This document shows positions 5,356 through 35,389 of a DNA stretch of 36,483 nt, one piece after another. Location: assembly GCA_016845305.1 (NCBI GenBank), contig JAERSW010000110.1, positions 1 to 36,483 of the forward strand, in the 5' to 3' direction. The notes under the pieces were generated by a model that was given only the letters and a program-made list of their open reading frames with translations, was not told the DNA's origin and did no database searches. Position 1 is the stretch's first letter, and each line of letters opens with the position of its first letter. The translations under genes and the position numbers were made by a program. Origin of the DNA: Acidimicrobiales bacterium (GTDB taxonomy: Bacteria; Actinomycetota; Acidimicrobiia; Acidimicrobiales; MedAcidi-G1).

Positions 5356-6591
5356 GTGCCGACGGGCCCCGGGGTCACCATCCGTGCGGCGGTGAGCCGA
5401 GGTGTCGGCCTACCGCCCAGCATCGAACGGCTCCACCTCGACGCGCCCGGGCCCGACGAGGTCCGCGTCCGGGTGGCCGCCTGCGCCGTCTGCCACTCGG
5501 ACCTCAGCTACCTCGACGGCACCTGGGCCACCGAGTTCCCCCTGGTGCTCGGCCACGAGGCCGCCGGCCACGTCGTCGAGATCGGGCCCTCCCCCGGGGA
5601 GGACGCGGCCCCCGCAGACGACCCTGTCCCCGGCAACGCCGCCCCGGAACTCCGCGTGGGCGACCCGGTGGTCGTCACGCTGGTCCGCACCTGCGGCGAC
5701 TGCCGGGCGTGTCGGCGCGGCCACGACGTGGCCTGCTCCGGTCGGCTCCCGATCTCCGAACGCAGCCCGCTGGCCGACGCGGACGGCGTCCGCATCCCCC
5801 AGGGCCTCAACGTGGCCGGGTTCGCCGAGCAGGTGGTCGTGCACCGCTCCCAGGTCGTCCGCCTCCCCGACGACGTCGACCTGCTGGCCGCCTCGCTGCT
5901 GGGCTGCGGGGTGCTGACCGGCGCCGGGGCGGTCACGAACACCGCAGGCGTGGCGGCCGGTGACGCCGTGGTGGTCATCGGCTGCGGCGGCGTCGGCAAC
6001 GGCGCCGTCCAGGCGGCCCGCATCGCCGGCGCCGATCCGATCGTGGCCGTCGACCCGTCGGCCGACAAGCGGGCCGCGGCCCTCGGCTTCGGCGCCACCC
6101 ACGCCGTGGACCCCGCAGTCGACAACCTCCCCCACTCCATCGGCGCGGCCACCGGTGGCCGGCTCGCCGACCACGTCCTGGTCACCACCGGGGCCCCGGC
6201 CGCCCTCGACGGCGCCATCGACCTGCTGGCCCCCATGGGCAACCTCGTCATCGTCGGCATGGCCGGCGACGACGTGACCATGGAGGTGGCCCCCAGCTGG
6301 CTGGCCGCCGCCAACAAGTCGATCCTCGGCTCCAAGATGGGCACCATCCGCGTCGCCGAGGACGTCCCGGCGCTCGTCGAGCACCACCGGGCCGGACGGC
6401 TCGACCTGCACGGCATGGTGTCGAGCACCCACGACCTCGACGACATCGCCGAGGCGTTCGACGAGGTGTGGCGGGGCGAGGCCCTGCGCACCGTGGTCCT
6501 CCCCAACGGCAGCCCGGCGCCCACCACCGCCGAGCAGCCCATCACCGCCGAGCAGCCCATCACCTCCGAGAAGGAGGCGGCGACGTGCTGA
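5356..6591 (+). CDS. Zinc-dependent alcohol dehydrogenase (MDR family)
   Basis: A 411-residue medium-chain dehydrogenase that oxidises an alcohol or reduces an aldehyde with NAD(P). Catalytic-zinc residues are C46 (in AVCHSD, with H47) and H67-E68 in LGHEAAG. The structural-zinc loop is C113-x2-C116-x2-C119-x7-C127. The Rossmann motif VVVIGCGGVGNGAVQ is near residue 210. It resembles class III/mycothiol-type enzymes, so a role in handling formaldehyde or another aldehyde from demethylation is possible but unproven. The GTG start has TAGTTT six bases upstream. The C-terminal tail carries a tandem 18-base repeat (TTAEQP/ITAEQP/ITSE) absent from the family core. The gene overlaps the next start by seven bases. 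Confidence 0.92.
   Translation: MPTGPGVTIRAAVSRGVGLPPSIERLHLDAPGPDEVRVRVAACAVCHSDLSYLDGTWATEFPLVLGHEAAGHVVEIGPSPGEDAAPADDPVPGNAAPELRVGDPVVVTLVRTCGDCRACRRGHDVACSGRLPISERSPLADADGVRIPQGLNVAGFAEQVVVHRSQVVRLPDDVDLLAASLLGCGVLTGAGAVTNTAGVAAGDAVVVIGCGGVGNGAVQAARIAGADPIVAVDPSADKRAAALGFGATHAVDPAVDNLPHSIGAATGGRLADHVLVTTGAPAALDGAIDLLAPMGNLVIVGMAGDDVTMEVAPSWLAAANKSILGSKMGTIRVAEDVPALVEHHRAGRLDLHGMVSSTHDLDDIAEAFDEVWRGEALRTVVLPNGSPAPTTAEQPITAEQPITSEKEAATC
6523..6570 (+). repeat. 18-base tandem repeat at the 3' end of the alcohol dehydrogenase gene
   Basis: Unit ACCACCGCCGAGCAGCCC at 6523-6540, repeated with one change at 6541-6558, and a 12-base partial third copy at 6559-6570. It is in frame and adds a TTAEQP-type extension to the protein tail. 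Confidence 0.85.
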
Positions 6592-7883
6592 TCGCCGACG
6601 TCGAGACGTTCGTGGTCGGCAACCCGCCGCCGCGCCACGGCGGCCGGTACTTCATCTTCGTCAAGCTGACCACCGACGACGGGATCGACGGGATCGGCGA
6701 GGCCTACGTGGCCACCGTCGGGCCCCACCTGGTGGCCGACATGATCGTCGACGTGGCCGAACGCCACCTCGTCGGCCACCGGCCCTTCGACGTCGAGTCG
6801 TTCTGGCGGCGGGCCTACGGCAGCGGCTACGCCCTGCGCCCCGATCCGACCCTGTGCGGCGTGATGAGCGCCCTGGAGATGGCCTGCTGGGACATCGTCG
6901 GCAAGGCCACCGGTCGACCCGTGTACGACCTCCTGGGCGGCCGCGTCCACGAGGGCCTGCGCTCCTACACGTACCTGTATCCCGACGACGCCGACGCCTA
7001 CGACACGCCACTGGGCTCGAATGGGCCCGGAGGCTCCGCCTCCGGTGAGAAACCCGCCCCGAACCTGTACACCGACCCCGACCTGGCCGCCGAGGCCGCG
7101 GTGCGGGCCGTCGAGCTGGGCTTCACCGCCGTCAAGTTCGACCCGGCCGGCCCGTACACCGTCTACGACGGCCGCCAGCCGTCACTGGAACGCCTGGACC
7201 TGTCGGAGCGCTACACCCGGGCCATCCGCGAGGCGGTCGGCGACCGGGCCGACCTGCTGTTCGGCACGCACGGACAGTTCACCCCGTCGGGGGCGCTGCG
7301 CCTGGCCCGCCGGATCGAGAAGTACGACCCCCTGTGGTTCGAGGAGCCGGTGCCCACCGACGACCTCGAGGGCATGGCCCGCGTGGCGGCCGGCACCACC
7401 ATCCCGGTGGCCACCGGCGAACGCCTCACCACCGTCACCGAGTTCGCCGCGGTGCTCCGTGCCGGGGCGGCGTCGATCCTGCAGCCCGACCTGGGCCGTA
7501 GCGGCGGGATCCTCCAGGGCAAGAAGATCGCCAGCCTCGGCGAGGTCCACCAGGCACTGCTGGCCCCCCACTGCTACTGCGGACCGGTCGTGGCCGCCGC
7601 CAACATCGCCCTGGCCACCTGCAGCCCCAACTTCCTGGTCCTCGAGTCGATCGACCGCTTCGACGGCTTCCACGCCGAGCTGCTGGAGACGCCCATCCGG
7701 TGGGAGGACGGCATGGTCGTCCCGTCGACCGAGCCGGGCCTCGGCGTGGTGCTCGACGAGGCGGTGGCCCGCGCCCACCCGTACACCGGCGACGACCTGC
7801 ACCTGACCCCCGAGGAGGCACCCATGGGCTTCGCAGAGGGGCTCGACCCCGCACCGACCGAGTGGTGGGACCGCCCCCGATGA
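6585..7883 (+). CDS. Mandelate racemase/muconate lactonizing enzyme-family protein (enolase superfamily)
   Basis: 432 residues from the GTG at 6585, which has AAGGAGG seven bases upstream and overlaps the previous stop by seven bases. The capping domain (1-130) is followed by the barrel: AVKFDPAG (K184) after strand 2, FEEP (E253/E254), TGER (E279), and APHC (H329), the usual general acid/base His of dehydratases and racemases. At the first metal-ligand strand, where Asp is normal, the sequence reads FGTHGQ (G227-H229), so the canonical Asp is not obvious. An insertion, about residues 140-160, is Gly/Ser/Pro-rich. The reaction is proton abstraction alpha to a carboxylate (dehydratase, racemase or epimerase), with substrate unknown. 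Neighbours suggest a betaine or other osmolyte carboxylate, which is inference only. Confidence 0.88.
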   Translation: MLIADVETFVVGNPPPRHGGRYFIFVKLTTDDGIDGIGEAYVATVGPHLVADMIVDVAERHLVGHRPFDVESFWRRAYGSGYALRPDPTLCGVMSALEMACWDIVGKATGRPVYDLLGGRVHEGLRSYTYLYPDDADAYDTPLGSNGPGGSASGEKPAPNLYTDPDLAAEAAVRAVELGFTAVKFDPAGPYTVYDGRQPSLERLDLSERYTRAIREAVGDRADLLFGTHGQFTPSGALRLARRIEKYDPLWFEEPVPTDDLEGMARVAAGTTIPVATGERLTTVTEFAAVLRAGAASILQPDLGRSGGILQGKKIASLGEVHQALLAPHCYCGPVVAAANIALATCSPNFLVLESIDRFDGFHAELLETPIRWEDGMVVPSTEPGLGVVLDEAVARAHPYTGDDLHLTPEEAPMGFAEGLDPAPTEWWDRPR

Positions 7884-9412
7884 GCGACGCCCGCCGGGGT
7901 CGCCGCAGCGGCCGGTCCAAGGTCCGCGACGTCGCCGCCGAACAGCCGCCGTGGGGCCAGCCGCGCCTGCGGTTCGAGCCCCTGCGAGCCGTGTCCGACG
8001 ACGAGCTGGAGGCCATCCACCAGGCGTCGCTGCGGGTCCTGTCCGAGACCGGCATCGACTTCCTCGACGAGACGGCCCGCCAACAGCTGGCCGACGCCGG
8101 CTGCGACGTGGACGGCGACCGCGTCCGCTTCGACCCCGAGCTGGTGCTGGACCTCGTGGCCACGGCCCCCGCCGAGTTCACCCTGCACGCCCCCAACCCC
8201 GAGCGCGACCTCCACCTCGGCGGCGACGTGCTCACCTACACCAGCGTGGCCAGCCCCCCGTTCGTGACCGGCCTGGGGCGCGACCGCCGCGACGGCAACC
8301 GCGACGACTACCGCGACCTCCTGAAGCTGGGCCAGGTGCTCAACCCGGTCCACACCGTGGCCGGCTACCCGGTCGAGCCCATGGACATCCACCCGTCGGT
8401 CCGCCACCTGCACGCCACCCACGACATGCTGACGCTGTCGGACAAGGTGCCGTTCGTCTACAGCCTGAGCCGGCAGCGCAACCTCGACGCCATCGAGATG
8501 ACCCGCATCGCCCGCGGCGTCGACGATGCCACCATCGCCGAACAGCCGTCGCTCTACTCGGTCATCAACGCCAGCACCCCGCTGCGCTACGACACCGTGA
8601 TGCTGCACGGCATCCAGGAGATGTCGGCCCGCAACCAGTGCATCGTCATCACCCCGTTCACCCTCGCCGGGGCGATGGCCCCGGTGACCGTCATCGGCGC
8701 CCTGGTCCTGCAGAACGCCGAGGCACTGGCCGGCATCGCCTACACCCAGGTGGTCCGCCCCGGCTCGCCGGTCATCTACGGCGGCTTCACCTCGAACGTC
8801 GACATGCGCTCCGGGTCGCCGGCCTTCGGCACCCCCGAGTACTGGAAGGCCTGCCTCATCGGCGGCCAGCTGGCCCGTCGCTACCGGGTGCCGTACCGGT
8901 CGTCGAACGTGAACGCGTCGAACAGCGTCGACTCGCAGTCGGCCACCGAGAGCGCCCTGGCCGTGTGGGGCGCGGTGATGGGCGGCGTGAACCTGCTGCT
9001 GCACGGCGCCGGCTGGCTGGAGGGCGGCCTGCTGACCTCGTTCGAGAAGATGGTGATCGACGCCGACCTGCTGAACATGGTGTCGGCCATGCTCGAGCCG
9101 ATCACCGTGGACGACGCCGCCCTGGCCGTCGAGGCCATCGCCGAGGTCGGACCGGCCGGGCACTTCTTCGGCACCCAGCACACCCAGGACCGCTACGCCA
9201 CCGAGCACTTCCAACCCATGGTGTCGTCGTGGACCAACTTCGAGACGTGGGACGAGGGCGGACGCCTCGAGTCGCACCAGCGGGCCGAGACGCTGGCCCG
9301 CACCCTCATCGACGGCCACGTCGAGCCGCCCATGGCCGCCGACCGACGGGCCGCCCTCGACGAGTTCGTGGCCCGCCGCGTCGCCGAGGGCGGCGTCGAG
9401 ACGGACTACTAG
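7880..9412 (+). CDS. MttB-family (trimethylamine/glycine betaine-type) methyltransferase, non-pyrrolysine
   Basis: 510 residues. The ATG overlaps the previous stop as ATGA. Recognisable MttB-family segments are the N-terminal IHQASLRVLSETGIDF, VGFDP-like VRFDPELVLDLV, the central SGSPAFGTPEYWKACLIGGQLARRYRVPYR and SATESALAVWGAVMGGVNLLLHGAGWLEGGL. Classical MttB demethylates trimethylamine with a UAG-encoded pyrrolysine; homologues without it, such as MtgB, act on quaternary amines like glycine betaine or proline betaine. The frame is continuous with no internal TAG, so this belongs to the second group. Known members pass the methyl group to a corrinoid protein, and none is encoded in the window. 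The next gene, a dimethylglycine dehydrogenase homologue, would act on the demethylated product. The family is sure; the substrate is inferred. Confidence 0.9.
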   Translation: MSDARRGRRSGRSKVRDVAAEQPPWGQPRLRFEPLRAVSDDELEAIHQASLRVLSETGIDFLDETARQQLADAGCDVDGDRVRFDPELVLDLVATAPAEFTLHAPNPERDLHLGGDVLTYTSVASPPFVTGLGRDRRDGNRDDYRDLLKLGQVLNPVHTVAGYPVEPMDIHPSVRHLHATHDMLTLSDKVPFVYSLSRQRNLDAIEMTRIARGVDDATIAEQPSLYSVINASTPLRYDTVMLHGIQEMSARNQCIVITPFTLAGAMAPVTVIGALVLQNAEALAGIAYTQVVRPGSPVIYGGFTSNVDMRSGSPAFGTPEYWKACLIGGQLARRYRVPYRSSNVNASNSVDSQSATESALAVWGAVMGGVNLLLHGAGWLEGGLLTSFEKMVIDADLLNMVSAMLEPITVDDAALAVEAIAEVGPAGHFFGTQHTQDRYATEHFQPMVSSWTNFETWDEGGRLESHQRAETLARTLIDGHVEPPMAADRRAALDEFVARRVAEGGVETDY

Positions 9413-9449: not shown

Positions 9450-11984
9450 ATGCCCGACCTTCCCGACAGCACCCGGGTCGTCGTCGTCGGCGGCGGCGTG
9501 GTGGGGGCCAGCGTGCTCTACCACCTCACGAAGGCCGGCTGGACCGACGTCGTCCTGCTGGAACGCCGCGAGCTGACCGCCGGATCCACCTGGCACGCGG
9601 CGGGCGGCATGCACACCATCAACGGCGACCCCAACGTGGCCGCCCTGCAGCGCTACACCGTCCAGCTCTACGAGGACCTGGAACGGGAGTCCGGCGTGGC
9701 CTGCGGCCTGCACCTGACCGGCGAGGTCATGCTGGCCGACTCCGAGGACCGCATGGACTGGCTGCGCATGGCCCACGCCCGCGGTCGCTACCTGGGCATG
9801 CAGACCGAGCTGATCTCGGTGGCCGAGGCGAAGGAGAAGATCCCGTTCCTGGTCGAGGACCACTTCGTGGGCGCCCTGTGGGACCCGGTGGGCGGCCACG
9901 TCGACCCGTCGGGCGTCACCCACGCGTACGCCACCGCGGCCCGCATGGCCGGCGCGCAGGTCCACCGCAACACGTGGGCGCACGACATCGTCCAGCGGCC
10001 CGACGGCCTGTGGGACGTCGTCACCGAACGGGGCACCATCACGTGCGAGCACGTCGTCAACTGCGGCGGCCTGTGGGCCCGCGAGGTGGGCCGCATGTGC
10101 GGCATCGAGCTGCCGATCCTGGCCATGGAGCACATGTACCTGCTCACCGAGGAGCTCCCCGAGATCCAGCCGTGGCTGGACGCCACCGGGGGCCACGGCA
10201 TCGGCGCCATCGACTTCGGCGGCGAGATCTACACCCGGGCCGAGGCCGGCGGCCTGCTGCTGGGCACCTACGAGAAGGCGTGCGTCCCGTGGTCGGTGCG
10301 CGAGACGCCGTGGGAGTTCGGCGCCCAGTTGCTGACTCCCGACCTGGAGCGCATCGCCCCGTCGTTGGCCGTCGGCTTCGAGCACTTCCCCATCTACGCC
10401 GATGCCGGCATCCGCCAGGTCATCAACGGTCCGTTCACGTTCGCGTCGGACGGCAACCCGCTGATCGGCCCCATCCGCGGCCAGCGGGGCCACTGGGTGG
10501 CGTGCGGCGTGATGGCCGGCCTCAGCCAGGGCGGCGGCGTGGGCCTGGCCATGGCCAACTGGATAACCACCGGTGATCCCGGCTTCGACGTGTGGGGCAT
10601 GGACGTCGCCCGCTACGGCGACTGGACGACGAGGTCGTACACGAAGGCCAAGGTCATGGAGAACTACAGCCGCCGGTTCTCCATCTCGTTCCCCAACGAG
10701 GAGCTCCCGGCGGGCCGCCCGCTGCACACGTCGCCCATCCACGGCCGCCTCGACGCCGCCAACGCCGTGTGGGGGTCGTCGTACGGCCTGGAGACGGCGC
10801 TGTGGTTCCAGCGGCCGGGTGCCGAGCCGGTCGAGGAGGTCACCTTCCACCGGTCCAACGCCTTCGACGTGGTCGCCGACGAGGTCCGGGCCGTACGCAC
10901 CGGCGTCGGCCTCTTCGAGACCACCGGGTTCGCCAAGCACGAGTTCACCGGTCCGGGCGCCCGCGTCCTGCTCGAGCGGGTCCTCGCCAACCGGATACCA
11001 CCGCCGGGACGCATGGCGCTCGCTCCCATGCTCGACCACGGTGGCCGCCTCATCGGCGACTTCACCGTGGCCACGCTGGCCGACCCGTTCGACGGTGCCG
11101 AGACCTTCCTGGTCCTGGGCTCCGGCGTGGCCGAGGGCTACCACCAGCGGTGGTTCCTGGACCGGATCGCCGAGGACGCCGCCTCGGGCGGGGCCCGGGT
11201 CGCCTACCGGCCGCTGGGCCACGAGCTGGCCGGCCTGTCGCTGGCCGGCCCCGCCGCCCGCGACGTGCTGGCCGCGGTGGCCGGGGATGCCGACGTGTCG
11301 ACCGGGGCGTTCCGCTTCCGGGACGTCCGTCGGATGGACCTGGGCATGGTCGAGGCCATCGTGGGACGCATCACCTTCACCGGCGACCTCGGCTACGAGA
11401 TGTGGGTCCCGGCATCCCTCCAGCAACGCCTGTTCGACCTCCTGGTCGAGGCCGGCGAACCCCACGGCCTCCGCCCGTTCGGGCTGCGGGCGCTGGACTC
11501 CATGCGGTTCGACAAGGGGTTCGGGGCGTGGGCCAGCGAGTACCGGCCCATCTACACGCCCGGCGAGGCCGGCATGGACCCGTTCGTGGCCCTGACGGCC
11601 GCCGACGGCTCCGACCGGGACTTCATCGGCCGCGACGCCGTGATCGCCGAACGGGCGGCCGGCCCGCAGCGCCGGCTGTGCCTGTTCACCCTCGACGACG
11701 GCGGTGTGCCCGCCGGCCGCCGGACTGCTGGAGATGGGGCCGGGACCGACGTGCTGGGCGACGAGCCCATCTGGCACGACGGCGAGGTGGTCGGCTGGGC
11801 CACGTCGGGCGGCTACGCCCACTGGTCGGAGGCGTCGTGCGCCCTGGGCTACGTGCCCGCCGCCGTCGCCGACCCGGCCACGCCGGCCGACGGCTTCGAG
11901 ATCGAGGTGCTCGGCGTGCGACGGGCCGCGACGCGCCGCGATGAGCCGCTGTTCGACCCCTCGGGGTCCCGGATGAGGGGGTAG
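9450..11984 (+). CDS. Dimethylglycine/sarcosine dehydrogenase-like FAD oxidoreductase with C-terminal GcvT domain
   Basis: 844 residues. The N-terminal FAD domain begins VVVVGGGVVGAS (G14-x-G16-x2-G19), with E38 as ribose contact. STWHAAG contains H49, the position of the covalent flavin-linking His in mammalian DMGDH. The DAO-type substrate domain runs to about residue 400. From about 430 onward it is an aminomethyltransferase/GcvT fold (VGLFETTGFAKHEFTGPGARVLLERV, DLGYEMWVP, FGLRALDSMR), which in DMGDH and sarcosine dehydrogenase binds tetrahydrofolate and captures the methyl carbon. The likely reaction is oxidative N-demethylation giving 5,10-methylene-THF or formaldehyde. The gene follows the MttB homologue by 37 bases. 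The exact amine cannot be read. Confidence 0.93.
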   Translation: MPDLPDSTRVVVVGGGVVGASVLYHLTKAGWTDVVLLERRELTAGSTWHAAGGMHTINGDPNVAALQRYTVQLYEDLERESGVACGLHLTGEVMLADSEDRMDWLRMAHARGRYLGMQTELISVAEAKEKIPFLVEDHFVGALWDPVGGHVDPSGVTHAYATAARMAGAQVHRNTWAHDIVQRPDGLWDVVTERGTITCEHVVNCGGLWAREVGRMCGIELPILAMEHMYLLTEELPEIQPWLDATGGHGIGAIDFGGEIYTRAEAGGLLLGTYEKACVPWSVRETPWEFGAQLLTPDLERIAPSLAVGFEHFPIYADAGIRQVINGPFTFASDGNPLIGPIRGQRGHWVACGVMAGLSQGGGVGLAMANWITTGDPGFDVWGMDVARYGDWTTRSYTKAKVMENYSRRFSISFPNEELPAGRPLHTSPIHGRLDAANAVWGSSYGLETALWFQRPGAEPVEEVTFHRSNAFDVVADEVRAVRTGVGLFETTGFAKHEFTGPGARVLLERVLANRIPPPGRMALAPMLDHGGRLIGDFTVATLADPFDGAETFLVLGSGVAEGYHQRWFLDRIAEDAASGGARVAYRPLGHELAGLSLAGPAARDVLAAVAGDADVSTGAFRFRDVRRMDLGMVEAIVGRITFTGDLGYEMWVPASLQQRLFDLLVEAGEPHGLRPFGLRALDSMRFDKGFGAWASEYRPIYTPGEAGMDPFVALTAADGSDRDFIGRDAVIAERAAGPQRRLCLFTLDDGGVPAGRRTAGDGAGTDVLGDEPIWHDGEVVGWATSGGYAHWSEASCALGYVPAAVADPATPADGFEIEVLGVRRAATRRDEPLFDPSGSRMRG

Positions 11985-11987
11985 CAG

Positions 11988-12017
11988 CCAGTGGCAGGAC
12001 ACCCAGTGCCAGGACAC
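11988..12017 (+). repeat. 15-base tandem duplication carrying two in-frame GTG starts
   Basis: CCAGTGGCAGGACAC (11988-12002) and CCAGTGCCAGGACAC (12003-12017) differ at one base. Each contains a GTG in the frame of the downstream M24 gene (11991 and 12006), so the duplication also duplicates the start codon. Confidence 0.85.
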
Positions 12018-13322
12018 AGGGCCCTCGGGGACGACCCGGACGATCCGCTGGTGCGGCGGGCGGCGACCGTCGGCCACCGGATGGTGATGGGGCCGGGCGA
12101 GCCGGCGCTGTCGGAGTGGGCGGCGGCCGGCCTCGAGCTGCCCGACGAGCAGGCCATGATGCGCGACCGCCTCGACCGGACCGTGGCGCAGCTGGCGGCC
12201 GACGGCCTCGACGGGATCCTCCTGTTCGACCCCATGAACGTCATGTACGTGACCTACGCCCCGAACATGCAGGTCTGGCTGCTCCACAACCAGGCCCGCT
12301 ACGCCTTCGTCGGCGCCGACGGCACGCTGGTCCTGTTCGACTACCCGGGTTGCGAGTTCCTGTCGGCCCACAACCCGTTCGTGTCCGAGAGACGGACCGC
12401 CCAGGGCTTCACCTACTTCCTGGCCGGGGATCGGGCCGACGAGCACGCCAAGGGCTTCGCCCAGGAGGTGGCCGACCTGGCCCGCACCCACGGCGGCGGC
12501 ACCCGGCGCATCGCCGTCGACTCGTCGACCACGCTGGGCATCACGTCGCTGCTCGGCGAGGGCCTGGAGCTGGTCGACGGCACCCGGGTGATGGAGGAGG
12601 CCCGCAAGGTCAAGGGCCCCGACGAGGTGAAGGCCATGCGCTGCTCGGTGCAGGGCACGCTCACCTCGTCCCGCCTCATGTTCGAGGCCATGCGGCCGGG
12701 CATGACCGAGAACCAGATCTGGGGCGTGCTGTGGGCCGAGATGCTGGCCCGCCACGGCGAGTGGATGGAGTGCCGGCTGCTGGCGGCCGGCCCCCGCACC
12801 AACCCGTGGTTCCAGGAGTGCAGCAGCTACCAGGTGGCCGACGGCGACGTGGTGGCCTTCGACACCGACCTGGTGGGCGCCTACGGGATGATGACGGACA
12901 TCTCGCGGACCTGGGTGTGCGGCGACGCCCCGCCCACGCCGGAGGCCCGCCACGCCCACGAGCTGGCCGTCGAGCAGCTGGCCCGCAACATCGAGCTGCT
13001 GGAGCCCGGCGCCACCTTCCACGACCTGACCCATCGGGCGTGGTTCCCGCCCGAGGAGGAGTACCGCCACTACTCGTGCCTGTTCCACGGGGTGGGCCAG
13101 TGCGACGAGTACCCGTCCATCGTGTTCCCCAGCGCCTGGGAGGCGTCGGGCTACGACGGGGTGCTGGAACCCGGCATGGTGGTCACCGTGGAGGCCTACG
13201 TGGGGGCCCGCTCCGGCGGCCAGGGCGTGAAGCTGGAGGACCAGGTACTCATCACCGAGGACGGGTATGAGAACCTGAGCCCGTGGACGCTGGACCTGGA
13301 CCGCTTCGAGCCCCTGGCGTGA
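11991..13322 (+). CDS. dddP: DddP-like DMSP lyase candidate (M24 metallopeptidase fold)
   Basis: 443 residues from the GTG at 11991 (another in-frame GTG lies at 12006). The fold is M24/creatinase, but the pattern is that of DddP, which splits dimethylsulfoniopropionate into DMS and acrylate rather than cleaving peptides. Metal ligands line up as D291, D293 (FDTD), D303 (TDISR), H366 (HGVG), E401 (VEA) and E416 (KLEDQ). D372 in HGVGQCD sits six residues after the metal His, where DddP has its catalytic Asp, and Y361 matches a reported active-site Tyr. Numbering is offset from the Ruegeria enzyme by a constant 4-5 residues. The N-terminal segments GPGEPALSEWAAAGLELPD and PNMQVW also resemble DddP. 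Comparison is from memory. Alternatives are a creatinase-like or Xaa-Pro peptidase role. It follows the DMGDH homologue by six bases and precedes a thioesterase. Confidence 0.68.
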   Translation: MAGHPVPGHRALGDDPDDPLVRRAATVGHRMVMGPGEPALSEWAAAGLELPDEQAMMRDRLDRTVAQLAADGLDGILLFDPMNVMYVTYAPNMQVWLLHNQARYAFVGADGTLVLFDYPGCEFLSAHNPFVSERRTAQGFTYFLAGDRADEHAKGFAQEVADLARTHGGGTRRIAVDSSTTLGITSLLGEGLELVDGTRVMEEARKVKGPDEVKAMRCSVQGTLTSSRLMFEAMRPGMTENQIWGVLWAEMLARHGEWMECRLLAAGPRTNPWFQECSSYQVADGDVVAFDTDLVGAYGMMTDISRTWVCGDAPPTPEARHAHELAVEQLARNIELLEPGATFHDLTHRAWFPPEEEYRHYSCLFHGVGQCDEYPSIVFPSAWEASGYDGVLEPGMVVTVEAYVGARSGGQGVKLEDQVLITEDGYENLSPWTLDLDRFEPLA

Positions 13323-19902: not shown

Positions 19903-22701
19903 TCAGGCCGCGGCGGGCTCCAGGTCGTCGTAGGTCTTGTTCCTCCGGAACTCCAGGAGGATCTTCTTCGATGTCACCGCCAGGATCGCCCCGGCGAACA
20001 TGGTGAGGAAGGCTCCCGCCCCTGTCACCACGTTCAGGTCGGAGACCCTTGCCAGGCTGGCCACCCAGATGATGCCGATGAGCGCAAGGCCGCCGCCGGC
20101 CGCGGCCACGGCCGCGCTCCACCTCCAGCGTCGTTGTTCGTCGAGCCCGAGCAGGCCCGAGGCTGGCACGGTCAGGGCTGCGCCGAGGACCGACACCACC
20201 AGGGCCAGCTTGCCCAGCCCGGCGCCCTGGTCGGTGTAGCCGTCGGTGATGACCTTGGCCTGACGGCGGAACTTGTTCCGCAGCGACGTCACCTTGCTGG
20301 TGTTGGTGGCGGCCAGCGCCGGATTCGCCTTGGCCTCCTCGCGCAGGCGATCCATCTCGTCGATGATCTCCTGCGGGAGCTCCGAGGCGACCCGCTCGTC
20401 GAACGTCCAGCCGGAGTAGCCGCCGACCACCACGAGGACCACGGCGAGGGCGCCGGTGCCCATGCGACCCCAGCCGATCAGGCGCTGCAACGGCCGGAAG
20501 GCCGTGTAGGGGGCCGTCTGCAGGGCGAGGACGGCGCCGACGAGCATCACGGCACTGGCCACGATGGCCACGGTCACGCCCGATCCGTGGACGTAGCCCT
20601 CCACGTCGCGGTGCGGTGCGGCCAGCCGGTACACGAGACCGGCCATGAGCATGCAGGACGAGACGATGAGCATCGAGTCGGCACCGAACCACCGGGAACC
20701 CGTCCGGATCGTGACGGCGACCACCGCCCCGATGGCCAGGGTGGCCAGGATCTGCGTGTCCAGGAAGATGGCCGAGTCGCCGCTGCCGATGCTGCCCAGC
20801 ACCAGCCAACGGACGGCCACGCCGACCACCAGGGCCACGACGAGGGCTCGGTTCCGGTCCATGGCCACGCCGACCACCCGCAGCACGGCAGCCGCCGTGG
20901 CCAGGGCCACGATGTCCTTGACGTCCAGGGCGCTGGTCACCGGCTGCACGGCCAGGCCCACCAGGGCCACGACCAGGCCGGCGCCCATGGCGTTCCAGGT
21001 GGTGCGGGTGGCGTCCAACAGGTTCGTCCGACCGAGGGACCCCACGACCGCGGCGGCCAGGGCGGCCACGATGATGGCGACCACCTCGCCGTCGAGGCCC
21101 AGCGGCGTCTCGAAGTAGTAGCCGAGGATGCCGACCGTGGACGCCCAGACGCCCACCGACCGCCAGCTCATCGGCACGGACACCCGGGCCAGGCCCAGGA
21201 CGAGGCCGAGAACGGCCGGGATGGTGATGGTCTCGATGGCCACCGCCCACACCGCCTGGGCCTCGTGGCCCTGCAGGTTGGCCAGCGTGGTGAACCCGTC
21301 GAACTGGCCGAGGATCGGGAAGGCGTAGATCGCCGCGAAGGCACCGACGGCCACGGCCACCAGCCCCCCGGGGCCCCTCAGGCGCCCGATGCCGCCCGTC
21401 CAGAACAGGCAGGACCCCGCCGCCATGACGGCGAAGAAGCCGAGGAACAGGATGATGATGCCCGACCAGCTCCCGCCCGAGGCCACGTAGCCGTTGAACG
21501 ACTGCCCGGCCATGTCGATGTCGGTGGCCCGCGAGTGGCTGGAGAAGAGCCCGGCGTTGCTTCCCCAGGTCATCAGCGTCGACAGGACGGCGACGATGCC
21601 GCCCACGCCGACGATGGCCATGCCGAGGCGCTCGCGCCCGGAGGCCACGACCTCGTGCTCGACGTGCTCGACCTTGAGCGCCTTCTGCTCGTCGGTCTCG
21701 GCGGCCTCCACCTTCTTGAGGAGCTCCTCCGGGTCACGGCGGTTGGCCATGGCCTCGCGGATGCGCGACAGCAGGGTGCCCCCGCCGTCCTCCTCGGGCT
21801 GGGACAGGCGGTCGAGGACGACGGCCACGGTCCACAGGGCGAGACCGGACGAGATGCCGAGGCCCACGTCCAGGTTTTGGACGGCCCGGAAGACCAGGAG
21901 GCCGAGGCCCGAGGCGCCCATGATGGCGGCGATGCCGACCATGGCGATGGCCAGCATCAGCGTCTGGTTGAGGCCGGCCATGATCGACGGCTTGGCCAGC
22001 GGCAGCTGGACGTCGGTCAGGACCCGGAGCTCGGTGGCGCCGTAGGCCCGGCTGGCCTCGACCACGTCCTCGGGGACGTGTCTGATGCCCAGGTTCACCA
22101 TGCGCACCAGGGGTGGCAGGGCGTAGATCATCGTCACCATGGTCGCCGGGACGACGCCGATGCTGAAGAAGAACACGAACGGCACCATGTAGACGAAGGT
22201 GTGCACCGTCTGCATGGCGTCCAGGACCGGCCTGGTCACGTTCCAGGCCGAGTCCACCCGGGCACAGAACACCCCCAGTGGGATGCCGATCAGGGCACAC
22301 AACCCGACGGCCACGAGCACCATGCCGATGGTCCGCATGGTCTCCAGCCAGTACATGGCGCCCAGCAGGCCGCACATGGTGAGGCCGGCACCGGCCATGA
22401 TGCCGATCTTCGGCGTCCGGATGAGGGCACCGAGGATGACGGTGAAGATCACCACCTGGTACCACGGCAGGGTCAGGAGGAACTCGTTGACGAAGTTCTC
22501 CAGCAGGAAGTCGAACGGCCACTTGATGGCGTCGAGGAACCACTGGGCGTTGAGGTCCAGCCAGTCGACCATCTGGTCGAACCAGTAGCCGATCGGCAGC
22601 TGGAACTGGTCCAGCACCTTGGTCTCGGACAGGCCGACGCCCTCGGCGCGGCCGGTCCACTCGCCGGTCTCGGCGGCGGCGATCCAGGTCGCAGCGCTCA
22701 C
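19903..22701 (-). CDS. Glycine betaine/carnitine-type ABC transporter permease (ProW-like) with a ~570-residue C-terminal membrane extension
   Basis: 932 residues from the GTG at 22701, which overlaps the stop of the ATPase gene (GTGA). Residues 1 to about 295 are a ProW/OpuAB-type permease: aromatic-rich N-terminus (FLDAIKWPFDFLLENFVNEFL), several membrane helices, and the EAA loop EASRAYGATELRVLTDVQLPLA (215-236) that docks the ATPase. A charged linker, about 300-357, follows. Then comes a region with about 16 predicted hydrophobic helices, interrupted near residues 800-850 by a charged, coiled-coil-prone segment (IDEMDRLREEAKANP). Ordinary ProW is about 350 residues, so the extension is unusual; I do not recognise its family. 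It contains no obvious periplasmic binding domain, and no binding-protein gene lies nearby. Confidence 0.86.
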   Translation of the reverse strand: MSAATWIAAAETGEWTGRAEGVGLSETKVLDQFQLPIGYWFDQMVDWLDLNAQWFLDAIKWPFDFLLENFVNEFLLTLPWYQVVIFTVILGALIRTPKIGIMAGAGLTMCGLLGAMYWLETMRTIGMVLVAVGLCALIGIPLGVFCARVDSAWNVTRPVLDAMQTVHTFVYMVPFVFFFSIGVVPATMVTMIYALPPLVRMVNLGIRHVPEDVVEASRAYGATELRVLTDVQLPLAKPSIMAGLNQTLMLAIAMVGIAAIMGASGLGLLVFRAVQNLDVGLGISSGLALWTVAVVLDRLSQPEEDGGGTLLSRIREAMANRRDPEELLKKVEAAETDEQKALKVEHVEHEVVASGRERLGMAIVGVGGIVAVLSTLMTWGSNAGLFSSHSRATDIDMAGQSFNGYVASGGSWSGIIILFLGFFAVMAAGSCLFWTGGIGRLRGPGGLVAVAVGAFAAIYAFPILGQFDGFTTLANLQGHEAQAVWAVAIETITIPAVLGLVLGLARVSVPMSWRSVGVWASTVGILGYYFETPLGLDGEVVAIIVAALAAAVVGSLGRTNLLDATRTTWNAMGAGLVVALVGLAVQPVTSALDVKDIVALATAAAVLRVVGVAMDRNRALVVALVVGVAVRWLVLGSIGSGDSAIFLDTQILATLAIGAVVAVTIRTGSRWFGADSMLIVSSCMLMAGLVYRLAAPHRDVEGYVHGSGVTVAIVASAVMLVGAVLALQTAPYTAFRPLQRLIGWGRMGTGALAVVLVVVGGYSGWTFDERVASELPQEIIDEMDRLREEAKANPALAATNTSKVTSLRNKFRRQAKVITDGYTDQGAGLGKLALVVSVLGAALTVPASGLLGLDEQRRWRWSAAVAAAGGGLALIGIIWVASLARVSDLNVVTGAGAFLTMFAGAILAVTSKKILLEFRRNKTYDDLEPAAA

Positions 22702-23918
22702 AGGAACACCTCCCGCTCGAAGCCGTCTACCAACTGCTCCACTCGGCCCATCTCCTCCATGATCTCCCGTGGCTCCAGCTCGCCGACCAGGCGTCCGCTG
22801 TCGTCGCACACGGCGATGGGCAACCCTCGTCCGGCCGCCGCGTAGTTGTCGTTGAACCGCGCCTCGGGCGAGGTGGTGTCGAAGTCGGACCGCAGCACCG
22901 ACGCCAGGTCGGTGGTGCCGTGGGCGAGGGCCGACGCGGCGTCGGTGACGGCCAGCAGCCCGGTGGGCCGCCCGTCGGCGTCGCACACGAAGCCGCCCCG
23001 GCGGTCCCCGAGGCGATCCACGCACTCGGTGAGCGTCTGCGACGTGTCGATGATCACCGGGGCCTGCATGACCTTGTCGACCTCGATGACCCGGCCCTGG
23101 TCGACGTCCTGGACGAACTCGGCCACGTAGCCGTCGGCCGGCTCGGTGAGGATCTCCTCCGGGGTGCCGATCTGGATGACCTTGCCGTCGCGCAGGATGC
23201 ACACCCGGTTGCCGATGCGCAGCGCCTCGTTGAGGTCGTGGGTGATGAACAGGATCGTCTTGTGGAGCCGTGACTGGATGGTCATCAGCTCGTCCTGCAT
23301 CTGGCGCCGGATCAGCGGGTCCAGCGCGCTGAACGCCTCGTCCATGAGCAGGATGTCGGGGTTGGAGCACAGCGCCCGGGCCAGGCCGACGCGCTGCTGC
23401 ATGCCGCCCGACAGCTCACGGGGCGAGTTGAAGGCGTAGGCCTCGAGGCCGACCATGGCGAGGGCCTCGATGGCCGCCTCGTGGCGCTCCTTCTTCTCGA
23501 CGCCCTGGACCTTCAGGCCGTAGGCGGTGTTGTCGATGACGTTCCGGTGCGGGAACAGCGCGAAGTGCTGGAACACCATCGACAGCTTCTCGCGGCGGAA
23601 CGACTGCAGGGCCGCCCCGGTCAGGTCCTGGACGTTGGTGCCCTCGACCATGACCCGGCCGTGGGTGACGTCGTGGAGCTTGTTGACCGTCCGGATGGCC
23701 GTGGACTTGCCCGACCCGGACAGGCCCATGACCACGAAGATCTCGCCCTTCTGCACCTCGAAGGAGATGTCGCGCATGCCGACCACGTGGCCGGTCTGGC
23801 GCTGGACCTCGTCCTTGCCCACGCCCGAGGAGCACAGGTCGAAGGCCCGCCCCCTGGGGTTGGGTCCGAAGATCTTGTAGACGTTCTCGAGTGCGATGAT
23901 CGGCTCGGCGTCCGACAT
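22698..23918 (-). CDS. proV: Glycine betaine/carnitine/proline-type ABC transporter ATPase (ProV-like) with CBS domains
   Basis: 406 residues. Motifs are Walker A GLSGSGKST (65-73), signature LSGGMQQ (169-175), Walker B ILLMDE (189-194) and the switch His in ITHD. The C-terminal ~120 residues (VIIDTSQTLTECVDRL, GFVCDADGRPTGLLAVTDA, PIAVCDDSGRLVGELEPREIMEE) form a CBS pair, which in OpuA/ProV senses ionic strength. The start has a strong AGGAGGGG site (about 23924-23931), and the gene overlaps the permease by four bases. It energises uptake of compatible solutes. An insert (about 20-46, LCSSGVGKDEVQRQTGH) near the N-terminus is typical of this subfamily. Substrate preference is inferred from the catabolic genes around it. 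Confidence 0.93.
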   Translation of the reverse strand: MSDAEPIIALENVYKIFGPNPRGRAFDLCSSGVGKDEVQRQTGHVVGMRDISFEVQKGEIFVVMGLSGSGKSTAIRTVNKLHDVTHGRVMVEGTNVQDLTGAALQSFRREKLSMVFQHFALFPHRNVIDNTAYGLKVQGVEKKERHEAAIEALAMVGLEAYAFNSPRELSGGMQQRVGLARALCSNPDILLMDEAFSALDPLIRRQMQDELMTIQSRLHKTILFITHDLNEALRIGNRVCILRDGKVIQIGTPEEILTEPADGYVAEFVQDVDQGRVIEVDKVMQAPVIIDTSQTLTECVDRLGDRRGGFVCDADGRPTGLLAVTDAASALAHGTTDLASVLRSDFDTTSPEARFNDNYAAAGRGLPIAVCDDSGRLVGELEPREIMEEMGRVEQLVDGFEREVFL

Positions 23919-24860: not shown

Positions 24861-25721
24861 TCACGCGTGGGCGTGCTGCCAGCCGAACCGGCCCTTGATG
24901 CACAGGTGGCCGTGGGTCACCGAGTGGTCGGCCGGTGAGGTGACCTTCACGATCCGCTCGTCCTGGACGTGCAGTTCCAGGTTGCAGCCCACCCCGCAGA
25001 ACGAGCACACCGTGGTGGCCACCGACTGGCGGGACTCGTCCCAGGTGCCGGCCTCGCGCATGTCGTGCTCGGTCTTGAAGGCCAGTGCCCCGGTCGGGCA
25101 CACCCCGATGCAGTTGCCGCAGTACACGCAGGCCGAGTCGGGCAGCGACACGTCGTGCTCGGTCGAGATGTGGGCGTCGAACCCCCGGCCGGCCGTGGCG
25201 ATGGCGTAGGTGTGCTGGGCGTCGTCGCCGCACGCCTCGACGCACTTGTAGCAGAGGATGCAGCGCTCGTAGTCACGGACGTACAGGTCGTCCTGGACCT
25301 TCACCGGCTGCGCCTGCGTGGCGATCTCGGAGCGGTCGCCCATCCGTTCGGGGCGGGCCCCGTAGTGGTCCATCCACGCCTGCACCTCGGGGGCGGCCCG
25401 GTCCATCTCCACCGACGAGGCCAGAAGCTCGTAGACCATGCGCCGGCTGGTCCGCACCCGCTCGGTGTCGGTGGCGACGACCATCCCCTCCTCGACCTTG
25501 CGGGAACACGAGGGGACGAGCACCCGGGAGCCCTCGACCTCGACCACGCACACCCGGCACACGTTCACCGGGGTCAGGTTCTCGGCCCAGCACAGCGTGG
25601 GGGTGTCGATGCCCTCCCGCCGACAGGCGTCGAGGATGGTCGAGCCCTCGGGCACCCGGACCGATTCGCCGTCGAGGGTGAGCTCGACCATGGTCGACAC
25701 GCTGACCGCCGTCTCGTTCAT
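24861..25721 (-). CDS. Formate dehydrogenase alpha subunit, N-terminal iron-sulfur part (split gene)
   Basis: 286 residues. The ATG overlaps the preceding stop (ATGA). It has a [2Fe-2S] ferredoxin domain (C44, C55, C58, C72) and two [4Fe-4S] clusters (C154/157/160/164 and C198/201/204/208). The last part, CSFCGVGCNLELHV...HLCIKGRFGW (C239, C242, C246, C274, with K276), is the cluster segment that normally opens the molybdopterin domain of FdhA/FdsA. The protein stops just after that Lys-Gly, exactly where the remaining molybdopterin domains begin in intact homologues; those are encoded separately at 27576-29534. The His-Cys3 cluster of NuoG/FdsA-type proteins is not seen. It likely wires the active site to the NADH module. 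The split is direct observation; assembly into one complex is inference. Confidence 0.88.
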   Translation of the reverse strand: MNETAVSVSTMVELTLDGESVRVPEGSTILDACRREGIDTPTLCWAENLTPVNVCRVCVVEVEGSRVLVPSCSRKVEEGMVVATDTERVRTSRRMVYELLASSVEMDRAAPEVQAWMDHYGARPERMGDRSEIATQAQPVKVQDDLYVRDYERCILCYKCVEACGDDAQHTYAIATAGRGFDAHISTEHDVSLPDSACVYCGNCIGVCPTGALAFKTEHDMREAGTWDESRQSVATTVCSFCGVGCNLELHVQDERIVKVTSPADHSVTHGHLCIKGRFGWQHAHA

Positions 25722-27583
25722 CGGGACCCCTCCCCCTCGCCACCACCGGCGGCACCCATGCCGTCCAGGAGGCCCAGCTCGATGGCGCTGCGGATCGCTC
25801 CCGACGCCGTCTGGCCGAGGCCGCAGATCGAGGCGTCGCGCATGACGGTCGCCAGGTCGTCCAGCAGGTCGCGTTCGTCGTCGATGGTGGACCCCCGGCC
25901 GAGCCGGACCAGGACCTCCTCCTGGCGGACGGTGCCCACCCGGCACGGCACGCACTGGCCGCACGACTCGTCGCGGAAGAACTCGGCGATGCGGCGCACC
26001 GTGTCGACCATGTCGTCGTTCTGGTCGAAGACCATGATGACGCCCGAGCCGAGCGAGGCGCCGGCCGCCCGGGTGTCCTCCAGCGTCAGGGGCATGTCGA
26101 GCGCCTCGGGCCCGACGAAGCTGCCCGCCGCGCCACCCAGCATCACGGCCCGCATCTCGCTGCCGTCGACCAGGCCACCGGCCAGGTCGACGAGGTCGCG
26201 CAGCGTGGCGCCGAACTCCACCTCGTAGGTGCCGGGGCGGTTCACCCGCCCGCTGAGGCAGAAGAGCTTGGTGCCCGGGGAGCGTTCGGTCCCCTCCGCC
26301 GCGTAGGCCTCGCCACCCATCTGCACGATGGGAAGGACGTTGACCAGGGTCTCCACGTTGTTGATGGCCGTCGGCTCGCCGAACAGGCCGTACGTGGTCG
26401 GGAAGGGCGGCTTGTTGCGGGGCTCGCCCCGCTTGCCCTCCAGCGAGTTGAACAGCGCCGTCTCCTCGCCGCAGATGTAGGCGCCGGCGCCGTTGCGAAG
26501 CATCAGGTCGAAGCGGAGGCCCGAGCCGGCCACGTCGTCGCCCAGCAGGCCCGCGGCGTAGGCCTCGTCGATGGCGTGGTGGAGGCGGGCGGTGGCCACC
26601 GGGTACTCGCCACGGATGTACAGCCAGCCCTGTTCGGCACCGATGGCCGTGCCGGCCACCGTCATGGCCTCGACGAGGGAGAACGGATCGCCCTCCATCA
26701 CCACCCGGTCCTTGAAGGTGCCGGGCTCGGACTCGTCGGCATTGCAGACCAGGTGTCGGGGCCGGCCCTCCTGGTCGGCCACGCCCCGCCACTTGACGCC
26801 GGTCGGGAAGGCCGCGCCGCCGCGACCGGACAGGCCCGAGGCGGTCACCTCGGCGATGACCCGGTCGCCGCCCATGGCCAGGGCGGCCTCGAGCGCCCGG
26901 TACCCGCCGTGGGCCCGGTAGTCCTCGAGGCTGGCCGGGTCGACGACGCCGACGCGGGCCAGCAGGCGCAGGCCGTCGGAGCCGGCCTGGGGCCCAGCCT
27001 GAGGCCCAGCCTGGGGAAGGGTGACCGACGGGGTCGAGGTCGCCGTGTCGATGGCGACGGCCACCTCGGCGGTGGTGACGGGCCCGCCGTCCACGGCGGT
27101 CACCGTCAGGTCGTCCCGGCCGGTCCGCTGGACCATGACCGCCGGACCGCGCTCGCACTGGCCGAGGCACGGGCTGGCCTTCACGTGGTGGCCCTCGGAC
27201 CGCAGGTCGTCGATCAGGTCCACGGCACCGAACAGGCGGCAGGCCACGTCGTCGCAGACGTGCACCGTGTCGTCGGCCGTCGGCGGCTCGTGGGTGAACA
27301 GGTGGTAGAAGGTGGCCACGCCGTACGCCTCGGCGGGCGGGACCTCCAACTCGCCGCACACGTGGTCGAGGCCGCCGGGGCTGATCCACCCCGAGGCCCG
27401 CTGCAGCGCGTGCAGGGCGGGGAGCAGCAGGTGGCGTCGCTCCATGGTCCGGGCGCGACCGGCGTGGACGAGGCGTTCCGACTCGCGGACCACCACGGGA
27501 CCGAAGCCGGCGATGGCCTCGGCCACCGCGGCCCGCTCGGCATCGGTGGCCTCGTCGGTCGCCCCGAAGTAGAGGTCAGGCAC
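25718..27583 (-). CDS. NAD-linked formate dehydrogenase diaphorase subunit, NuoE-NuoF fusion
   Basis: About 621 residues from the GTG at 27583, which overlaps the catalytic gene by eight bases. Residues 1-165 are NuoE/FdsG-like with a [2Fe-2S] site at C110, C115, C139 and C143. A short linker containing PQAG repeats leads into a NuoF/FdsB-like domain with GLSGRGGAAFPTGVKW (NADH/FMN), CNADESEPGTFKDR, YICGEETALFNSLEG, and the [4Fe-4S] segment ESCGQCVPCR with a later Cys in SICGLGQ. The protein passes electrons from formate to NAD. In FdsABG-type enzymes E and F are usually separate genes; here they are fused. An earlier ATG at 27649 would add 22 residues inside the upstream gene and is less likely. 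Confidence 0.92.
   Translation of the reverse strand: MPDLYFGATDEATDAERAAVAEAIAGFGPVVVRESERLVHAGRARTMERRHLLLPALHALQRASGWISPGGLDHVCGELEVPPAEAYGVATFYHLFTHEPPTADDTVHVCDDVACRLFGAVDLIDDLRSEGHHVKASPCLGQCERGPAVMVQRTGRDDLTVTAVDGGPVTTAEVAVAIDTATSTPSVTLPQAGPQAGPQAGSDGLRLLARVGVVDPASLEDYRAHGGYRALEAALAMGGDRVIAEVTASGLSGRGGAAFPTGVKWRGVADQEGRPRHLVCNADESEPGTFKDRVVMEGDPFSLVEAMTVAGTAIGAEQGWLYIRGEYPVATARLHHAIDEAYAAGLLGDDVAGSGLRFDLMLRNGAGAYICGEETALFNSLEGKRGEPRNKPPFPTTYGLFGEPTAINNVETLVNVLPIVQMGGEAYAAEGTERSPGTKLFCLSGRVNRPGTYEVEFGATLRDLVDLAGGLVDGSEMRAVMLGGAAGSFVGPEALDMPLTLEDTRAAGASLGSGVIMVFDQNDDMVDTVRRIAEFFRDESCGQCVPCRVGTVRQEEVLVRLGRGSTIDDERDLLDDLATVMRDASICGLGQTASGAIRSAIELGLLDGMGAAGGGEGEGSR
26986..27017 (+). repeat. 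12-base tandem repeat encoding PQAG in the NuoE-NuoF linker
   Basis: Given on the plus strand: CCTGGGGCCCAG (26986-26997), CCTGAGGCCCAG (26998-27009) and a partial third copy to 27017. It encodes a flexible linker between the two fused domains. Confidence 0.8.
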
Positions 27584-32588: not shown

Positions 32589-32631
32589 TCCACGACGCCC
32601 ACCGGAGACGGCTCGGTCCGGGACCGTCGGG

Positions 32632-33792: not shown

Positions 33793-33816
33793 GGGTCCCT
33801 CCTCGGGGCGGGCGGT

Positions 33817-35319: not shown

Positions 35320-35389
35320 CACGCCCTCCGCTCCGTTGCGATCAGCACGCATTCTCGAATGGTTGTCCCGAAGCGTTCCAGCATGTGGA

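Follow-up and report, generated by a model that had tools for sequence, protein, structure and literature searches.

The window, the whole 36,483-nucleotide stretch analyzed here, is one entire contig from the genome of an uncultured, marine-type member of the Acidimicrobiales (2.92 Mb in 136 contigs, 98% complete, 1.13% contamination). An uninterrupted open reading frame with a GTG start at positions 11991–13322 of the plus strand encodes a DddP-like M24-fold protein of 443 aa (Pfam Creatinase_N and Peptidase_M24), hereafter the query, and its GC content by codon position (0.71/0.46/0.97) was coding-like. As the earlier note had described, genes for an MttB-superfamily methyltransferase (non-Pyl; 7880–9412, plus strand; PF06253, 615.8 bits) and a DMGDH–GcvT fusion (9450–11984, plus strand) lie upstream, the latter stopping 6 bases ahead of the query start. 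The MttB belongs to a DddP-linked subfamily; its best PDB match was 4yyc, followed by glycine betaine methyltransferase (9yce/2qne), and it matched the superfamily model PF06253 and scored 291.6 bits with the trimethylamine methyltransferase model TIGR02369, below the cut-off of 525. The fusion joins an FAD oxidoreductase to a folate-binding GcvT part; its best PDB match was dimethylglycine dehydrogenase, and it matched this enzyme (4p9s, 5l46) over the full length with the domain order DAO–FAO_M–GCV_T–GCV_T_C. Judged from its sequence, it is a putative dimethylglycine-type demethylase, in a genome with 13 GcvT-type and 7 MttB-superfamily matches.

A zinc alcohol dehydrogenase family gene (MDR; 5356–6591, plus strand) and an enolase-superfamily gene of the mandelate racemase type (Pfam MR_MLE; longest open reading frame 6468–7883, plus strand) precede the MttB gene, and both were kept beside the DddP-like gene in the query's subclade. 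By profile and Pfam comparison, the alcohol dehydrogenase was nearest to NDMA-dependent alcohol dehydrogenase and mycothiol-dependent formaldehyde dehydrogenase, with scores under both cut-offs. Its assignment as AcuI was rejected (TIGR02823, 36.3 bits; cut-off, 297). The best PDB matches of the enolase-superfamily protein (4e5t, 4e4u, 3t4w, 3rcy, and 4j3z) carried generic names only, and the alignment began at residue 42; the true start of the gene is probably near 6590.

The minus strand encodes a glycine betaine/proline/choline-type ABC transporter ATPase (ProV-like; 22698–23918; TIGR01186, 362.8 bits; cut-off, 326.6), a probable NAD-linked formate dehydrogenase with NuoEF-like and alpha-type subunits (25718–29231; PRK13596 NuoF, 389.5 bits, cut-off 389; Fdh-alpha TIGR01591, 506.3 bits, below the cut-off of 666), and a long-form L-carnitine dehydrogenase (33817–35352; NF005471, 419.6 bits, cut-off 414; NF005716, 516.4 of 592 bits). 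This gene neighborhood points to the breakdown of methylated osmolytes. The carnitine dehydrogenase gene stands in an adjacent minus-strand row with genes for an acyl-CoA dehydrogenase (32632–33792) and an NDP-forming acyl-CoA ligase (30513–32588), and the row (30513–35352) is perhaps a carnitine catabolic run. DddX was rejected as an assignment for the ligase, whose match to acetate–CoA ligase was weak (211.7 of 1200 bits; E limit used, 1e-60).

The closest named relatives of the query were Acidimicrobiales, Acidimicrobiaceae, or Microthrix MAGs (63–81% identity), which bore out its earlier description as actinobacterial. The protein was matched (E 1e-90) in 8 of 396 sampled genomes of the phylum: its own, two from the same order, and five from two other families. 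Its own genome encodes three further DddP-like M24 proteins (263–308 bits with NF043017), all without the W96/Y298/Y361/D372 set described below. One DddP-like paralog of this genome (L010; G000:C18) adjoins another relative of DMGDH (33%), which is encoded on the opposite strand. Plasmid records with relatives of the query (P0001) numbered 181, all below 60% identity and mostly from Rhizobium and Sinorhizobium; among the 40 records listed, some (Oceanisphaera, Paracoccus yeei, and Loktanella) were annotated as DddP and others as Xaa-Pro peptidase family protein.

Fold, profile scores, and position in the DddP tree

Homology to DddP spanned residues 28–434 of the query (NF043017, E 1.1e-134; PDB ID: 4rzy, E 2.3e-112), and the best PDB sequence matches were 4rzy and 4b28. 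Identity was 45% to RlDddP/RdDddP-type DddPs and 41–48% to 37 canonical-clade rows. With NF043017, the NCBIfam equivalog model of DddP, the query scored 449.6 bits (449.1 in the genome scan) against a cut-off of 600. Six of nine proteobacterial genomes reached this cut-off, among them Roseovarius (891 bits), Oceanimonas (629), Psychrobacter (617), and Pseudomonas caricapapayae (601); Labrenzia (516; L081), Denitromonas (514), and Roseibium (482; L102) fell below it.

An AlphaFold2 model based on 43 aligned sequences of proteins from the window and the loci (pLDDT 89, pTM 0.87) had the M24 pita-bread fold with the Creatinase_N domain that DddP membership calls for. Four DddP entries headed the comparison of the model with the PDB (Z 47.5–47.7, rmsd 1.6–1.7 Å), with RdDddP (4b28) giving a Z of 47.7 and an rmsd of 1.6 Å across 409 residues. 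The next families were Xaa-Pro dipeptidase (Z 34.2), creatinase (32.0), and ectoine hydrolase (31.9). Eight other NCBIfam models, covering peptidases, prolidase, methionyl aminopeptidase, and ectoine hydrolase, gave 28–50 bits against cut-offs of 171–850, and the query lay far outside the equivalogs Xaa-Pro aminopeptidase (50.2 of 465 bits) and ectoine hydrolase (48.2 of 575 bits). Profile scores, residues, and structural Z argue against an identity as a peptidase or creatinase.

The careful tree comprised 70 rows with RlDddP and RdDddP as the verified references, the fungal DddPs and O. doudoroffii DddP1 and DddP2 being absent. The M24 rows, initially 138, were reduced to 111 by dropping identical ones. 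The 70-row tree divided the DddP-signature proteins into two sides. One held a canonical clade of 21 rows including RlDddP, RdDddP, and Oceanimonas (support 100/100), to which the Roseibium-type proteins were sister (96/85). The second side was a clade of 32 rows (100/94) composed of the query, other Acidimicrobiia, a few Gammaproteobacteria, Denitromonas, one Nitriliruptorales row, and one Chloroflexi row. A larger quick tree, from which nine near-duplicates and short pieces of L153, L155, L158, and L159 had been removed, recovered the canonical and query clades and left the Roseibium-type position unsettled.

The phylogeny that the earlier note had proposed as a check thus did not group the query with RlDddP and RdDddP in their clade, which is the first of the two outcomes that the note had named together as refuting its proposal. 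Because it missed the NF043017 cut-off and fell in a separate clade, the query is a sister of verified DddP and no member by the stricter tests. Of the earlier designation as a candidate DddP, the DddP fold and the active-site set stood; a score of 449.6 of 600 bits and a sister clade outside RlDddP/RdDddP spoke against it. Compared with the DddP DMSP lyases RlDddP (4rzy/4s00/4s01) and RdDddP (4b28), the query was alike in fold, length, six metal ligands, and the equivalents of W95, Y366, and D377, but it was 45% identical, scored below the cut-off, belonged to a sister clade with another gene context, and differed from RlDddP at R84, T90, H252, N255, L375, C305, and C404. The Roseibium/Labrenzia-type DddP-like proteins (L081, L102, and L103) shared with the query the same residues, the same MttB–DMGDH–DddP-like gene order, and, for L081 and L102, a score under the NF043017 cut-off, but were nearer to the canonical clade (96/85); to our knowledge, no functional test of them exists.

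Active-site residues and subclade-specific changes

Alignment to RlDddP paired its W95, D295, D297, and D307 with W96 (codon 12276–12278), D291, D293, and D303 (12861–12899) of the query, and its Y366, H371, D377, E406, and E421 with Y361, H366, and D372 (13071–13106) and E401 and E416 (13191–13238; all plus strand). The eight of these residues that the earlier note had listed (D291, D293, D303, H366, E401, E416, D372, and Y361) were therefore present, with an offset to RlDddP that was 4 through D303 and 5 from Y361 onward instead of constant as it had stated. According to the available part of PMC4108388 (the sources below are likewise cited from the parts available), there are six metal ligands, at which alanine mutants of RnDddP were inactive, and Tyr366 and Asp377 are invariant candidates for the base; D372 is the proposed catalytic base of the query. 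A conserved Trp, whose number is not given, and a Tyr hold the sulfur of DMSP according to PMC5395565, which is second-hand for the mechanism; we infer that this Trp is W95 of RlDddP.

Residues were counted in a 113-row alignment with 98 DddP-clade and 14 paralog rows, the distant M24 row L009_181 being excluded from the groups. The six metal ligands were complete in 97 of the 98 DddP-clade rows and also in 13 of the 14 neighboring M24 paralog rows, so that they are not diagnostic of DddP. By comparison, W96, Y298, Y361, and D372 were complete in 98/98 DddP-clade rows versus 0/14 paralogs, and this set separates DddP from M24 paralogs. The invariance of D372 is partly built in for 80 loci, since these were fetched with patterns containing NPW or CDE motifs. 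The set was also present in all 18 same-order genomes found without patterns and was missing from the next-ranked proteins of that search (G006 and G138). L058, L059, and L033 formed a distinct DddP-like group with intact metal ligands and the replacements W96Y, Y298G, Y361N, and D372N, perhaps with another activity.

Row counts revealed further changes in the query's subclade, namely M85 and P91 (codons 85–91; 12243–12263, plus strand), which are specific to it, and W248 and M251 (12732–12743, plus strand). The position of RlDddP R84 was Met in 13/13 rows of the subclade and Arg in 99/99 others, paralogs included, and that of T90 was Pro in this subclade only and never among the 99 other counted rows. 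At the positions of H252 and N255, the subclade had Trp and Met, and every canonical (37), Roseibium-type (10), and acB (25) row had His and Asn; these positions varied in acC (Trp at H252 in 4/7) and mixed rows. The query's subclade shared its changes at L375, C305, and C404 with acB. Since positions 84–90 precede W95, the changes at R84 and T90 may touch the onium pocket, and the pocket of the query's subclade may differ from that of DddP.

Gene order and co-occurrence with MttB

We surveyed gene order at 99 loci, at many of which the contig ended inside the scanned stretch. Two of the 13 loci of the query's subclade (acA), L041 and L066, had an identical MttB and appear to come from one genome, leaving 12 distinct loci. 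Both MttB and DMGDH genes were near the DddP-like gene in 12/13 loci of this subclade (11/12 without the duplicate), 8/10 Roseibium-type, 3/6 mixed, 4/25 acB, and 2/7 acC loci, and in none of the 36 canonical or two outgroup loci. The same-strand order MttB–DMGDH–DddP-like gene was found in Acidimicrobiia, in Roseibium and Mesorhizobium (Alphaproteobacteria), and in Gammaproteobacteria (L114, L123, and L124), and in ten distinct relatives (63–81% identity) the alcohol dehydrogenase, enolase-superfamily, MttB, and DMGDH genes preceded the DddP-like gene in the same order as in the window. The occurrence of the MttB–DMGDH–DddP-like order across phyla is new here; a literature search with most subscription journals outside its range found no description of such an operon.

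Variations of this order were seen at several loci. In a close relative (L061), MttB and DMGDH were missing, the enolase and alcohol dehydrogenase genes were kept, and the DddP-like gene directly followed the enolase gene, as if the two had been lost. Two acC loci (L056 and L057) had space for one gene between MttB and DMGDH, occupied in L056 by a Rieske oxygenase. MttB alone lay near 6/36 canonical genes, on the opposite strand in all but one case; at one of these loci (L100), sarcosine oxidase SoxA was encoded with SoxG beside it. An assignment of the 28% GcvT-like matches near canonical DddP in Gammaproteobacteria as DmdA was rejected, the match at L100, the locus scanned, being SoxA. The dddP neighbors in Oceanimonas were a LysR regulator, an MFS transporter, and a BCCT transporter. 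GMC enzymes were encoded at two loci, one resembling choline dehydrogenase near L124 and a second near L108. The latter locus, in Leucothrix, had a 58% relative of the window's enolase-superfamily gene directly after a canonical-clade dddP, followed by the GMC oxidoreductase gene. A scan of 10 neighboring proteins from eight loci, most of them without MttB, revealed no common theme beyond the GMC oxidoreductase of L108 and a type III CoA-transferase at L054.

A quick tree of MttB proteins was built from 45 rows, with three short rows dropped and L170 and L171 of the query's own genome absent. Of the 37 MttB rows near DddP-like genes, 33 (32 without the duplicate) fell in one branch with the window MttB and its own duplicate record. 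This DddP-linked branch of 35 rows (SH-aLRT 99, a support that needs care because long branches are present) stood apart from 9yce, 4yyc, and four other own-genome copies; L111, L123, L128, and the second copy in L114 were outside it.

At the genome level, the linked MttB was defined by at least 55% identity, a threshold chosen after a gap down to 48% had been seen. Among 148 genomes of the same order, 18 in seven families (f1, f17, f18, f28, f35, f43, and f59) encoded a DddP-signature protein, and the linked MttB was present in 18/18 of these and in 5/130 of those without one (G004, G064, G070, G102, and G138; Fisher p 5e-19, ignoring kinship). In 7 of these 18 genomes the two genes lay close together, and in the remaining 11 they were apart. 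Where a linked MttB stood without a DddP-signature gene (16 loci), DMGDH adjoined it in 8, namely in 5/11 genomes with a DddP-signature protein and 3/5 without. The gene order is thus common but loose, and the co-occurrence at the genome level is tighter. The genomes of Oceanimonas, Psychrobacter, P. caricapapayae, and Denitromonas, the last from the query's wider clade, showed no match to the linked MttB at E 1e-60, and from the first three it follows that verified-type DddPs do without it.

Aerobic marine bacteria demethylate glycine betaine by MtgBCD, which combines an MttB relative with a separate corrinoid protein (PMC12478193). The locus resembles this system of Ruegeria pomeroyi (9yce, 2qne) in having an MttB-superfamily enzyme, a probably aerobic host, and a dimethylglycine-type demethylase next to it. 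It differs in that the window MttB is on another branch than 9yce (SH-aLRT 99 in the quick tree with long branches, in which the R. pomeroyi enzyme was not included), that the window's contig had no corrinoid match, and that a DddP-like protein is added. In the genome, five of six matches to corrinoid (B12)-binding domains exceeded the cut-off, all six on other contigs.

Possible function of the DddP-like protein

We propose that the query is an onium β-lyase co-encoded with quaternary-amine demethylation, with DMSP as the likeliest single substrate, a reading to which we assign a probability of roughly 45%. The DddP-like gene would be the last in a co-transcribed run whose two preceding genes would strip methyls from a quaternary amine. 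MttB would hand a methyl group to a corrinoid protein whose gene lies elsewhere in the genome; DMGDH–GcvT would oxidize N-methyl groups onto tetrahydrofolate. The DddP-like enzyme, on its M24 pita-bread fold, would be a di-metal lyase, probably with iron and probably dimeric, that would β-eliminate the onium leaving group from an onium-propionate: one metal would bind the carboxylate, W96 and Y361 would hold the onium head, D372 would take the alpha proton, and acrylate would leave, so that DMSP would give DMS. Such an operon might serve two osmolytes arriving together, MttB–DMGDH acting on the nitrogen one and the DddP-like lyase on DMSP. Among single substrates DMSP appears the likeliest, since the organism would encounter it together with glycine betaine. 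We describe the query as a DddP-like lyase that belongs to a sister clade and is encoded within a conserved module for osmolyte demethylation; the name DddP is not yet earned.

The DMSP reading is favored by the residue set, the Z of 47.7, the 41–48% identity to canonical-clade rows, the betaine-type ABC ATPase, the corrinoid domains, and two further proteins of the genome. One is DmdA-like (L172; G000:C125:16-915, at a contig end), with 327 bits over 298 of 369 positions against a cut-off of 410 and a best PDB match to 3tfh of 239.5 bits (next, 115.4). The other is a YhdH/AcuI-type acrylyl-CoA reductase (422 bits; cut-off, 297), a model also passed by 2 of 14 control genomes. By eye, the frame that L172 adjoins resembled a DNA cytosine methyltransferase. 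Against the DMSP reading stand the NF043017 miss, the clade position, the changes at R84, T90, H252, and N255, the action of MttB and DMGDH on nitrogen compounds in the characterized relatives found, and the lack of a match to the linked MttB in genomes with canonical DddP such as Oceanimonas. DMSP lyases in the literature include a fungal DddP with just 32% identity to RdDddP (PMC4108388). The DddP of a scallop symbiont, nearest to O. doudoroffii DddP2 at 55% identity, is active (PMC10989825), so that a divergent sequence may still be active. Mutation of dddL in Labrenzia aggregata removed ~97% of the DMSOP lyase activity (PMC10686828), and any DddP-like protein there therefore did little.

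Given the subclade-specific changes and the co-occurrence, a nitrogen substrate is nearly as likely as DMSP. The protein would then be a DddP-fold lyase or hydrolase that natively acts on an N-onium compound or on an MttB/DMGDH pathway intermediate and cleaves DMSP incidentally or not at all; β-alanine betaine, for example, might yield trimethylamine and acrylate. The same-strand order shared by Acidimicrobiia, Roseibium/Mesorhizobium, and Gammaproteobacteria, the mostly single linked MttB subfamily (33/37 rows), and the 18/18 co-occurrence in the order all fit this explanation, as do the Rieske oxygenase at L056, SoxA/SoxG at L100, the GMC enzymes near L124 and L108, the carnitine dehydrogenase in the window, the changes near the pocket, and the Km of verified DddPs for DMSP, 14–17 mM (PMC5395565). 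However, the query retains the residues to which DMSP binding and deprotonation are attributed, our analysis points to no particular nitrogen substrate, and MttB is adjacent in only 7/18 genomes of the order, so that its tie to the query may only reflect the use of DMSP and glycine betaine by the same organisms.

The query might instead be a metallopeptidase or amidohydrolase of the Xaa-Pro, creatinase, or ectoine hydrolase kind that merely sits in the operon. It has the same fold as these enzymes, and creatinase-type enzymes elsewhere feed sarcosine-type pathways. Nevertheless, we consider this improbable in light of the scores of the other models (28–50 bits versus 171–850), the structural Z (at most 34.2 versus 47.7), and the Asp–Glu pair of the query at the site where M24 peptidases presumably have a hydrophobic residue and His; moreover, RlDddP was without measurable activity on Val-Pro in the available part of PMC5395565. 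That a mis-binned or broken gene or a chance neighbor produced the association is conceivable for a 136-contig assembly, but highly improbable given the intact frame, the order kept in ten relatives, and the completeness and contamination of 98% and 1.13%. A broader evolutionary proposal, which we regard as unlikely, would make the older role of DddP that of an onium lyase of the MttB–DMGDH osmolyte-demethylation module, which would occur in several phyla; the query's subclade would have kept this role with a non-DMSP, e.g., nitrogen-onium, substrate, and the canonical marine clade would have left the module to become a stand-alone DMSP lyase.

The query is a close sister of an enzyme that releases the climate gas DMS from algal DMSP. 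The earlier note's view of DddP as a protein found chiefly in marine Alphaproteobacteria and a few fungi is outdated, as published predictions of dddP include Acidimicrobiia MAGs (PMC7494906, PMC13280387). The former source reported dddP in 69 MAGs, Acidimicrobiia among them, with a criterion of 40% identity and 70% coverage, and its DddP groups III and IV include Actinobacteria. Metagenome surveys with such loose cut-offs list these proteins as DMSP lyases and so attribute DMS production to Acidimicrobiia; their counts are too high if the substrate of the sister clade is another compound. If DMSP is cleaved, the query is a candidate DMSP lyase in Actinomycetota, for which the available part of a 2018 study described Ddd+ isolates and, among the sequenced genomes of Actinobacteria, none with a known functional ddd gene (PMC6309047). 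The DddP-like gene would not explain those isolates, since they were Microbacterium, Agrococcus, and others, and a dddD-like gene alone was reported from the two sequenced. The millimolar Km of the DddP family is unexplained, and with either substrate the tie to one MttB subfamily offers a testable route to the native one.
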